From assembly GCF_001792815.1 (NCBI RefSeq), contig NZ_CP017674.1, positions 186,001-250,000 on the forward strand: a stretch of 64,000 nt of DNA, in the 5' to 3' direction. The translations under genes and the position numbers were made by a program. Of this stretch, positions 45,218 through 52,683 are shown in pieces; position 1 is the stretch's first letter; the number at the start of each line of letters is the position of its first letter. The DNA is from Microbacterium sp. BH-3-3-3. Its GTDB lineage: Bacteria > Actinomycetota > Actinomycetes > Actinomycetales > Microbacteriaceae. The notes beneath the pieces are model-generated. The model did not search any database. It had not been told where the DNA came from and was given only the letters and a program-made list of their open reading frames with translations.

Positions 45218-46542
<1,325 letters not shown>

Positions 46543-46546
<4 letters not shown>

Positions 46547-47379: not shown

Positions 47380-48402
47380 TCAGAAACCGATCGCGGCGCG
47401 GTAGCGCGGCTTGTGACCGGTGCGGATCCCGGTGACGCTCGGCTTGTTCTCGTACACGCCGGCACCCCAGTTACCCTCGACGAGCACGGGGCCGTCGGGA
47501 CCGACGACGATGTCCCAGCCCACGTACTGCACCTGCGGCACGACACGTGCGACCTGGTCGACGAACGCCTTCACCTCGTCGATCATCGGCAGCTGGAAGT
47601 CGGCGATGCGGGCTCCCGAGTCGGGGTGCAGTTCGTGCACGTGCCCGTGCGAGTCGTAGCCGGCGCCGAGCGCGTGGCCGTTCTCATCCAGCATCGTGTA
47701 GAAGCCGCCGAAGGTCATCTGGTCGCTCACGGCTCCCCGGCCGAACTTCTGCGCCATCGCGAGGATGTGCGTGGTCGAGCCGTCGAAGAACGCCGTGACG
47801 CGCGTGGTGTTCACCGTGCCGGGGCAGACCGCGGCGAGATCGTCGTGCTGGCGGATGACCTCTTCGACGAGGATCTCCCCGCGCTCGAGCAGGCCCCGGT
47901 GGAAGGCACTCCAGTCCTCGACCTCGGCCGCGTGATAGCGGTGCACGCCGGTCCCGGCCTGGCCGACCGGCTCCTTGGTGACGATGGTGCCTAGACGCTC
48001 GGTGAACGACTTCAGGGCGTCGGCGTTGTCGGCATCCACGACCATCCATTCACGGCGCAGGAAATCGCTGAACCGACGGTCGAACTCGACCTTGTCCTGG
48101 AAGATCCCGCGGTAGTCGGGGTGGTCGTATTTCTGCGAGATCTGATTCGACACGGGGTGCGTCATGTACGTCTCGCGCTCGGCGGGCGTCAGGATCGCGA
48201 AGTCGTAATCGATGTAGTCCTGGAAGCCGACGTTCTTCACACCGGCCTGGAAGAGCATGTCGGCGACCACGAGCGGCAGCGACTTGCCGTGCTGCTCCGC
48301 GGCTTCTTTGGCACGCTCGACCACCGAGCCGACGTCGATGCGGCGGGCGCGTCCGGCAAGGTAGCGGAGGCGGGTGACGGGGGAGAAGCCCTGGGTAGGC
48401 AT
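47380..48402 (-). CDS. Sugar-transfer-associated ATP-grasp protein
   Basis: A 340-residue protein with an ATP-grasp fold of the sugar-transfer-associated type: a basic N-terminus, TIVTKEPVGQAGTGVHRY for nucleotide binding, GEILVEEVIRQH, and the metal-binding WDIVVGPDGPVLVEGN near the C-terminus. ATP-grasp enzymes of this kind join a carboxylate to an amine or sugar and often act in cell-wall or capsule assembly. The exact substrate is unknown. It is divergent from the racemase-like genes with overlapping -10 boxes (48436-48442), which suggests a functional link. Confidence 0.82.
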   Translation of the reverse strand: MPTQGFSPVTRLRYLAGRARRIDVGSVVERAKEAAEQHGKSLPLVVADMLFQAGVKNVGFQDYIDYDFAILTPAERETYMTHPVSNQISQKYDHPDYRGIFQDKVEFDRRFSDFLRREWMVVDADNADALKSFTERLGTIVTKEPVGQAGTGVHRYHAAEVEDWSAFHRGLLERGEILVEEVIRQHDDLAAVCPGTVNTTRVTAFFDGSTTHILAMAQKFGRGAVSDQMTFGGFYTMLDENGHALGAGYDSHGHVHELHPDSGARIADFQLPMIDEVKAFVDQVARVVPQVQYVGWDIVVGPDGPVLVEGNWGAGVYENKPSVTGIRTGHKPRYRAAIGF

Positions 48403-48447: not shown

Positions 48448-49098
48448 GTGACCTCCACGCTCCCTGCCCGCACGCCCGCGGCCGGGGGAGTCGCGCCCGT
48501 GGCCCTCGTATCGGAGTCCGCTCTGCGCGCCAACGCGCCCCTCGCCCTCGCGGCCGGTGCGGCTTCCGGCGCCGACGACGTCTTCACGGCCGACGGCTGG
48601 GGGCACGGCGCGGCATGGGTGGCCTCCGTGCTGTCCGATCTCGACATGGATGCCGCCGCCCTCGACGCCGCAATCCTGTTCGGCCTACCCGGCTCGCACG
48701 CGCGCCCGGTGCTGTCGCTGCGCGGACGATCCCTCGGCTCCAAGCCCCTGTTGCGCGGGGAGGGCGTCTCGTACGGGTACACGCACCGCGCCCCCCACGA
48801 CACGACCATCGCTCTGGTCACCGGCGGCTATGCCCAGGGCGTCGTGCGCTCGCTCGGCAACGCGGTGACCGTCGCCATCGACGGGCGCCGTCACCGCATC
48901 GTCGGCCGCGTGGCCATGGACGTCTGCGTCGTCGACGTCGAAGACGCCCCCGTCGCCCGGGGGGCCGAGGTGGTCTTCTTCGGCGACCCGGCCGACGGCC
49001 ACCCGTCGCTCGAGGAGTGGACGGATGCCACCGGTCTCACCGCCGCGGAGATCGTTGCGATCGTCGGCGCCCGGGCAGACCGCAGGGTGGCCGCGTGA
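48448..49098 (+). CDS. Alanine-racemase-like protein: truncated barrel plus C-terminal (Tyr) domain
   Basis: A 216-residue protein. Residues ~18-65 resemble the start of the alanine racemase PLP barrel, but the PLP Lys position is Thr (VFTADGWGHGA where VVKADAYGHGA is typical) and the rest of the barrel, about 170 residues, is missing. Residues ~85-216 are a full Ala_racemase_C domain: catalytic-type Tyr109 in GVSYGYTHRAP, GGYAQGVVRSLGN, and VGRVAMDVCVVDVED with the conserved Met-Asp. It cannot bind PLP alone. It overlaps the next gene by 4 nt. The GTG start follows TAGTCT by 6 nt. Confidence 0.85.
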   Translation: MTSTLPARTPAAGGVAPVALVSESALRANAPLALAAGAASGADDVFTADGWGHGAAWVASVLSDLDMDAAALDAAILFGLPGSHARPVLSLRGRSLGSKPLLRGEGVSYGYTHRAPHDTTIALVTGGYAQGVVRSLGNAVTVAIDGRRHRIVGRVAMDVCVVDVEDAPVARGAEVVFFGDPADGHPSLEEWTDATGLTAAEIVAIVGARADRRVAA

Positions 49099-50138
49099 GT
49101 GCCGTCTACCGCGTCGACCTCGACGCCTTCGCCCGCAACCTGCGCCGCGTGCGCGAGGCCGTCGCCCCCGCCGTCCCCATGCTCGTCGTGAAGGACGATG
49201 CCTACGCCCACGGGCTCGAGCGGATCGTGCGGCGCGCGGGCGAGGAGGGCGTCCGCTGGTTCGGTGCGTTCGACGTCGTCACCGGCGCCGCGGTGCGCGC
49301 GATCGCCGGCCCGGACGCGCGCATCTTCGTCTGGCTCATCGGGGGAGCCGACGACCTGGCCGCGGGCATCGCGGCCGACCTCGACCTCGGCCTCGGCGAC
49401 GAGGCCTTGCTCGACGACCTCGCGCGTCTTGCGGCGGACCGCCCGGCGCGTGTGCACCTCAAGATCGACACGGGACTGCATCGCAACGGCATCCGACCCG
49501 AGCGGTGGCAGGGAGCCCTCGCGCGCACCGCCGCGCTGGTCGATTCCGGACGCGCCGTGCTCGAGGGGATCTGGTCGCACATCTCCGAGGCCTCGGATAC
49601 CGACGACGACGACGCCCGTGCCCTGTTCCTCGCCGCGCGCGATCAGGCGCGCTCCGCCGGCCTCGACCCGCGCTTCTCGCACCTCGCCGCCAGCGCGGCC
49701 GGATTCGCACGCGGGGAGTTCCGCGAAGACCTCGTGCGGGTAGGGGCGTTCTCGTACGGCATCCGTCCCGCCGGCGGCCCGAGCGAGACGGACCTCGGTA
49801 TCGAGCCCATCGCCCGTCTCACGGCGACGGTGACGACCGTCGACACGGCGGGCGTCCACCTCGACGTCGGCAGCCTGCACGGCCTTCCCTGCACCCTGGC
49901 CGCCCGCTTCGACGTCGACACTCCCGGGGGCCCCCGCCGGGTCGAGGCGATCCGCGCGACCGAGACCGTCCTCGCGCCGTGGGATGACGCGGCGCCCGGC
50001 GACGAGATCGCGATCTTCGGTCGGGGAGCCCGCAGCAGCGCGACCGACCTCGCCGAGCTCATCGACACGATCGGCGAAGAGATCGCCCTCCGCGTCTCGC
50101 CGAGCCTTCCCCGGGTCTACGACGCCGACGGGCGCTGA
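49095..50138 (+). CDS. alr: Alanine-racemase-like protein: PLP barrel (Lys) with degenerate C-terminal domain
   Basis: A 347-residue fold-type III PLP enzyme. The barrel has the PLP Lys33 in LVVKDDAYAHG, HLKIDTGLHRNGI and IWSHISEASDTDDD. The C-terminal domain (about 240-347) ends normally in IGEEIALRVSPSLPRVY, but the segment that should hold the second catalytic base (SYG.TY) and the GYADG loop is absent or unrecognisable. The upstream coupled gene carries exactly those parts. In alanine racemase the active site is built from the Lys of one subunit and the Tyr of the other, so the two products may form one enzyme. Substrate may be Ala or another wall amino acid. Confidence 0.85.
   Translation: MSAVYRVDLDAFARNLRRVREAVAPAVPMLVVKDDAYAHGLERIVRRAGEEGVRWFGAFDVVTGAAVRAIAGPDARIFVWLIGGADDLAAGIAADLDLGLGDEALLDDLARLAADRPARVHLKIDTGLHRNGIRPERWQGALARTAALVDSGRAVLEGIWSHISEASDTDDDDARALFLAARDQARSAGLDPRFSHLAASAAGFARGEFREDLVRVGAFSYGIRPAGGPSETDLGIEPIARLTATVTTVDTAGVHLDVGSLHGLPCTLAARFDVDTPGGPRRVEAIRATETVLAPWDDAAPGDEIAIFGRGARSSATDLAELIDTIGEEIALRVSPSLPRVYDADGR

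Positions 50139-50614: not shown

Positions 50615-52683
<2,069 letters not shown>

Follow-up and report, generated by a model that had tools for sequence, protein, structure and literature searches.

A two-gene alanine racemase-like pair with reciprocally lost catalytic residues in Microbacteriaceae

Two overlapping genes in the window (the whole stretch of 64,000 nucleotides that was analysed, from Microbacterium sp. BH-3-3-3) encode alanine racemase (Alr)-like proteins, each of which retains one of the two catalytic bases of the enzyme and has lost the other (Table 1). Across all 135 split pairs examined, the second protein (P2) has the PLP lysine and never the catalytic tyrosine, and the first (P1) has the tyrosine and never an aligned lysine, a reciprocal loss that is far beyond chance. 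Judging from the sequences, it is likely that the two proteins together form an obligate heteromeric racemase, PLP-dependent and of the Alr fold. Alanine racemase, the target of D-cycloserine, is the textbook homodimer with active sites shared between subunits, in which the lysine of one subunit and the tyrosine of the other flank the substrate-PLP aldimine. A two-gene Alr with one base per gene would offer a clean test of how such a homodimer evolves into an obligate heterodimer, since a single family includes unsplit, eroded, split and fused versions.

Table 1. Positions in the window of the racemase-like pair and of the neighbouring genes
Feature	Position	Strand	Remarks
P1, Tyr-donor subunit (putative)	48448..49098	+	216 aa; reduced barrel and complete Alr C-terminal domain
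P2, PLP subunit (putative)	49095..50138	+	347 aa; complete barrel, C-terminal domain without the Tyr265 segment
Overlap of P1 stop and P2 start, GTGA	49095..49098	+	4 nt
ATP-grasp protein, PF14397 (sugar-transfer associated)	47380..48402	-	retained next to the pair at some loci
sigA-type sigma factor, locus marker	45218..46546	+	from the neighbour search
parE/gyrB-type topoisomerase subunit, locus marker on the other side	50641..52683	+	start of frame approximate

Complementary losses in two adjacent genes

The only domain match of P1 is the Alr C-terminal domain (PF00842; residues 89-213, E 1.5e-30). P2 matches the whole of the barrel domain (PF01168; residues 7-225, E 4.3e-45), and PF00842 is matched in its last part alone (residues 297-342), at 21.7 bits and below the 25-bit cut-off. 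On TIGR00492, the NCBI family for alr, both proteins score under the cut-off of 168 (92.8 bits for P1 and 117.6 bits for P2), and neither carries both Alr domains complete in a single chain. The closest named enzymes for both are alanine racemases, and database entries for the halves are called either 'alanine racemase C-terminal domain-containing protein' or 'alanine racemase'. The sequence-only reading, which had proposed a split racemase here, suggested looking for a canonical alr elsewhere in the genome; the genome (one contig of 3,508,491 bases) does encode a separate, ordinary one (C1:1257122-1258192), with both domains in one frame. Both open reading frames and their 4-nt overlap lie where that reading had placed them. 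Its further claim that the overlap fixes a 1:1 translation ratio is unsupported, as the overlap only suggests translational coupling of P1 and P2. The P2 barrel starts no further than about 25 nt from the stop codon of P1 in 121 of the 122 two-gene loci, a distance that is approximate as it is taken from the profile alignment.

Residues were read at eleven functional positions on a profile of 60 canonical Alr proteins of the same order, with position numbers and residue roles that we take to be those of the Geobacillus alanine racemase. The 124 loci with a P2 relative that were read on this profile comprise 73 from the genus Microbacterium and 51 from other genera of Microbacteriaceae, and the canonical comparison set of 61 rows includes the ordinary alr of the window's genome, which served as reference. 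In the window, P1 has Y109 at Tyr265, Y128 at Tyr284, M157 at Met312 and D158 at Asp313, with T47 at the place of Lys39; P2 has K33 (Lys39), Y37 (Tyr43), K123 (Lys129), R130 (Arg136), H162 (His166) and R215 (Arg219), with nothing aligned at Tyr265 and E328 at the place of Tyr354. The profile alignment, joined for P2 by the domain search, bears out the earlier description of P1 as having Thr at the PLP lysine place and keeping Tyr109 and the Met-Asp, and of P2 as a PLP barrel with Lys33 and a missing Tyr segment.

The same pattern recurs throughout the sample. In P2, Lys39, Tyr43, Arg136, His166 and Arg219 are present at 124/124 loci and Lys129 at 123/124; the place of Tyr265 is a gap in 120, Val in 2, Ala in 1 and Tyr in 1, and position 354 is Glu (111) or Asp (13). 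In P1, Tyr265 and Met312 are present at 124/124 loci and Tyr284 at 120 (Phe in 4), and Asp313 is found at 111; the 13 with Asn are 12 of the 123 split rows and locus L116. At the Lys39 place of P1, Lys occurs once, other residues occur 80 times (Arg in 53), and 43 proteins are unaligned. The sole exception for both proteins is L116, an unsplit tandem with an intact Alr upstream and a P2 that has both residues. The complementary pattern is therefore found at 123 of the 124 loci on the profile, and also in 12 of 12 further pairs, in which P1 has Tyr265 and Met312 in 12/12 and Lys in 0/12, and P2 has Lys in 12/12, Tyr265 in 0/12 and Asp354 in 12/12. In a motif scan of the raw P1 sequences from the 122 two-gene loci, Lys was seen, among the motif matches, only in L116; no motif was found in 22 loci (one of which, L023, is cut by the contig end), and the matches in L034 and L141 look spurious. 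Canonical Alr has Lys39 in all 61 rows, and Tyr265 and Met312 in 60, with a gap in the remaining row. A catalytic tyrosine in the second protein, which the sequence-only reading had named as evidence against its own proposal, was seen in 0/135 split P2 proteins once the Lys39 and Tyr265 equivalents had been mapped. P1 lies directly upstream of each split P2 read, and a split P2 without P1 was found in 0/135 cases.

The erosion of the P1 barrel is graded: among 124 rows, at least 150 of the 222 barrel columns are occupied in 10 (including L116), 60-149 in 47 and fewer in 67, counts that are limited by the alignment. The P1 barrel, first described as shortened, is reduced further than that word suggests: in the predicted P1 structure it is about one beta-alpha unit plus helices. 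By their sequences, P1 and P2 look like two paralogues with reciprocal losses. We rejected the idea that they are the N- and C-terminal halves of one cut Alr, as P2 has its own altered C-terminal domain and longer P1 relatives (for example L068-L070, L072, L115 and L337) own a barrel.

Both genes are under purifying selection, with a median pairwise dN/dS among 12 close relatives of 0.206 for P1 (0.16 in the C-terminal domain and 0.31 in the N-terminal part) and 0.189 for P2. A decaying duplicate, now a pair of pseudogenes, could account for the loss of most of the P1 barrel and of the P2 Tyr segment. However, this reading is contradicted by a dN/dS of ~0.2 in both genes and by catalytic residues kept in 135/135 split pairs, and the pair is found at one locus in many genera; we regard it as extremely improbable.

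In the heteromeric enzyme that we propose, P2 would hold PLP on Lys33 in its barrel and supply the cis residues, and P1 would donate in trans the second base, Tyr109, together with Tyr128 and Met157-Asp158, like the partner subunit of the homodimer. The P1-P2 dimer would have one composite working site instead of the usual two, the other site being dead through the eroded P1 barrel and the Tyr-less C-terminal domain of P2. With a single composite site per dimer, each protein alone is expected to be inactive. Alternatively, P2 alone might be the enzyme, through one-base chemistry or another PLP activity, with P1 as its regulator or stabiliser: P2 has a full PLP barrel and retains a C-terminal domain, and there are known cases of a dead paralogue activating its partner. 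However, Tyr265 and Met312, for which a regulator would have no need, are kept in P1 in 135/135 pairs, Tyr284 is only ever Tyr or Phe, and the P1 barrel is eroded. Moreover, the nine P2-clade proteins without a P1 have their own Tyr, and none of the nine adjoins a Lys-less P1. A regulatory P1 thus appears improbable to us.

Natural fusions, unsplit relatives, a second, independent split, and purifying selection argue for the heteromeric racemase of the sequence-only reading. At two loci (L079 and L088) a single reading frame encodes both P1 and P2, and nine fusions of 716-745 aa were found among database proteins (P0244-P0252). P0244 is the L088 protein and P0252 is counted with L079, which leaves seven further fusions, among them proteins from Parafrigoribacterium mesophilum and Terrimesophilobacter MAGs. 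Of two more entries, P0253 is incomplete and P0254 seems to contain a frameshift. One natural P1-P2 fusion was modelled with high confidence as a two-lobed protein (pLDDT 87.8, pTM 0.86) in which both lobes are Alr-like. Structure searches against pdb matched alanine racemases and related racemases; these searches compare single chains and so carry no information on the arrangement of the two lobes.

Distribution, history and a second split

The main sample held 148 genomes, 89 from Microbacterium and 59 from other families. P2 was found at E 5.4e-69 or better in 73 of the 89 Microbacterium genomes, and P1 adjoins it in each; the search for the same pair in relatives that had been suggested at the outset therefore found it in these genomes, and also in other genera of Microbacteriaceae. 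The best P2 matches in the remaining 16 Microbacterium genomes (1e-26 to 1e-37) are at the level of canonical alr, and no P2 orthologue was found outside the family among the 59 genomes, where the best match was 1.1e-44. A frameshift or sequencing error is ruled out by the two-gene form in so many genomes of the genus; in addition, P1 is without most of the barrel and does not look like a broken-off extension of P2.

In a sample of Microbacteriaceae, a P2 match at E 1e-50 occurs in at least 57 of 299 genomes and at least 20 of 85 genera, both of which are undercounts. A profile of P2, which also matches canonical Alr, indicated additional loci, from which 20 were hand-picked for different genera: 11 of them carry the 12 further split pairs, in 8 an intact canonical alr precedes a full-length paralogue that has Lys, Tyr and Asp/Glu354, and one has a canonical alr alone. 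The unsplit state, in which a canonical alr and a paralogue of the acidic-354 type stand in tandem and are both intact, was seen at L332, L333, L338, L340, L343, L344, L346, L349 and L116. Two P2 copies are present in the genomes of M. sufflavum (G458) and M. stercoris (G471), and at L342 two complete split pairs are separated by about 5 kb. Microbacterium-type racemase genes also appear under the labels Stenotrophomonas maltophilia (L231), Rhynchospora breviuscula, a plant (P0182), Rhodococcus (P0126) and Burkholderiaceae (P0252), probably through contamination or mislabelling.

In the barrel tree, P2 forms one clade (66 rows, support 100/97). When unsplit members are included, all acidic-354 proteins fall into a single clade (50 rows, 99/94), within which the unsplit members lie in two separate places. 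Because unsplit forms are nested inside the split clade, the history was not a simple one-way split; the enzyme was split more than once, or the split was undone in some lineages, for example by exchange of the C-terminal domain with a neighbouring alr. The P1 barrels are long branches in this tree. In the tree of C-terminal domains, P1 falls on one side of a branch (91/92), with few columns and an unsettled bootstrap.

A second split occurs in genus g114, of which all five genomes sampled carry a pair at the usual locus plus a second pair with the gene order reversed (loci L208-L212). The first gene of the second pair has a barrel with Lys, Ser (4) or a gap (1) at the place of Tyr265, Ser at Met312, and Tyr354 kept in 5/5; the second gene is short, with Thr at Lys39 and with Tyr265 and Met312 intact. 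The barrel of this pair lies inside the canonical Alr clade of the family (98/91), and no intact Alr was found in any of the five genomes, the four PF00842 matches per genome all lying in the two pairs. By these residues and this placement, the canonical alr of g114 was split independently of P1-P2. As no intact copy was found, g114 provides the strongest argument from nature for a working split Alr, provided that D-alanine is not supplied by a transaminase.

Comparison with known enzymes

The homodimeric alanine racemases (Alr/DadX; PF01168 and PF00842, TIGR00492; for example PDB 1xfc, 1vfh and 5fac) have in common with P1-P2 the fold, the PLP lysine and the combination of cis and trans catalytic residues, at a site between the barrel of one chain and the C-terminal domain of the other. 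However, in P1-P2 the bases are on two paralogous chains, each incomplete, and Tyr354 is replaced by Glu/Asp. Bar (4dyj), lysine racemase (4dza), BsrV (4beu) and VanT (4ecl), which appeared as structural matches, have the Alr fold with a changed substrate range, but they are single-gene enzymes, unlike the two-gene P1-P2. In serine palmitoyltransferase (LCB1/LCB2), one paralogue has lost the PLP lysine and the heterodimer has one active site; its PLP fold and reaction differ from those of P1-P2, and LCB1/LCB2 is eukaryotic. A further likeness is Trypanosoma AdoMetDC with its prozyme, in which, according to the available part of the source (PMC5201418), a dead paralogue is required by its partner; that system differs in fold and chemistry, and P1 and P2 each retain one of two bases. 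Among the papers listed in a literature search that covered few subscription journals, none described an alanine racemase that is split or heteromeric, and none an ornithine racemase of Microbacteriaceae. What is new here would be the quaternary logic and possibly the substrate, the fold and presumably the chemistry being unchanged.

Substrate, cell wall and gene neighbourhood

The side chain of the substrate is close to Tyr354, whose replacement shifts specificity in the Geobacillus enzyme. All 144 P2-type proteins read have Glu or Asp at this place, and Tyr is found in 58 of the 61 canonical rows and in 5/5 of the g114 canonical-split proteins, which suggests a cationic side chain. We tentatively propose that the P2-type proteins act on a cationic substrate, for example ornithine for B-type peptidoglycan. 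With the same reserve, P1-P2 might then produce a D-diamino acid for such a wall, in Microbacterium D-ornithine, instead of D-alanine, a product available from the separate canonical Alr. A heteromeric racemase for alanine (or serine), so that the pair would itself be a spare alr, is another candidate to which we give appreciable but less than even weight. The closest named enzymes are alanine racemases, and the split of the canonical alr in g114 indicates that such an architecture can arise in an alanine-type lineage; the acidic residue at 354 and the canonical alr in the window's own genome speak against it.

We compared the pair with wall type, searching 49 named genomes, of which 33 have P2. 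M. paulum was placed in the M. lacticum clade, whose wall we take to contain lysine. In the available part of PMC10757982, D-ornithine is given for cluster V (M. algeriense, M. maritypicum and M. oxydans named, M. paraoxydans and M. hydrocarbonoxydans placed by context, M. galbinum and M. sufflavum described) and for cluster IV (M. testaceum and M. proteolyticum), and L-lysine for the wall of M. enclense; the available part of PMC10978784 gives an ornithine wall for M. schleiferi, in a table, and a lysine wall for M. saccharophilum. On these partial sources, 10/10 ornithine-walled species have the pair; among the three lysine species, M. saccharophilum and M. paulum (by clade only) lack it and M. 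enclense has it in 2/2 genomes. Wall type and pair thus agree in 12 of 13 species (one by clade only) and disagree in M. enclense, in a comparison with three lysine species, shared descent and several genomes from non-type strains, so that the agreement with the ornithine reading is suggestive at most. The idea of a D-ornithine wall, raised in the sequence-only reading, fits loosely: the 12 species favour it, but the L-lysine wall of pair-bearing M. enclense does not. Outside this count stand M. oleivorans, M. telephonicum, M. dauci, M. thalli and M. memoriense (all without the pair) and most other pair-positive species.

We speculate, with somewhat less than even confidence, that the acidic-354 racemases of Microbacteriaceae make the D-diamino acid of B2-type peptidoglycan, that in many genera reciprocal base loss turned them into an obligate heterodimer with a single composite site, that one genus independently did likewise with its essential alanine racemase, and that this repeated change can be traced in unsplit, partly eroded, split and re-fused forms that are all still living. 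Should the pair act on ornithine or a different diamino acid, it would point to the racemase that supplies the D-diamino acid by which taxonomists classify these bacteria.

Neighbourhoods were searched with the window's own neighbours; in this GC-rich DNA, spurious frames overwhelmed a clustering of all stop-to-stop frames against one another. The usual place of the pair is between the sigA-type sigma factor and parE. A parE lies within 3 kb in 91 of 94 pair loci, and in 78 its best frame follows the pair on the same strand; sigA lies within 3 kb in 67 of 94, and in 60 its best frame precedes the pair on the same strand. Moreover, parE is present in 11/11 further split loci, and window-type neighbours were found in none of the 9 unsplit loci. 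These two neighbours give no clear pointer to wall synthesis; the ATP-grasp neighbour is possibly a wall-related ligase. Among the 16 pair-negative Microbacterium genomes, 9 show the locus without the pair, with sigA, an F420-ligase-like gene, an ATP-grasp gene and parE in place; in 5, sigA and the F420-ligase-like gene are accompanied by a tandem of two ATP-grasp paralogues, and in 2 the stretch examined did not cover the locus. Orthologues of the ATP-grasp protein (PF14397) that are 73-94% identical occur in 7 of the 8 pair-positive genomes sampled, with none at E 1e-30 in G010. In pair-negative genomes its relatives are mostly 60% or ~40% identical and often tandem duplicates, and 2 of the 16 (G008 and G025) have an additional relative, 69-71% identical, elsewhere.
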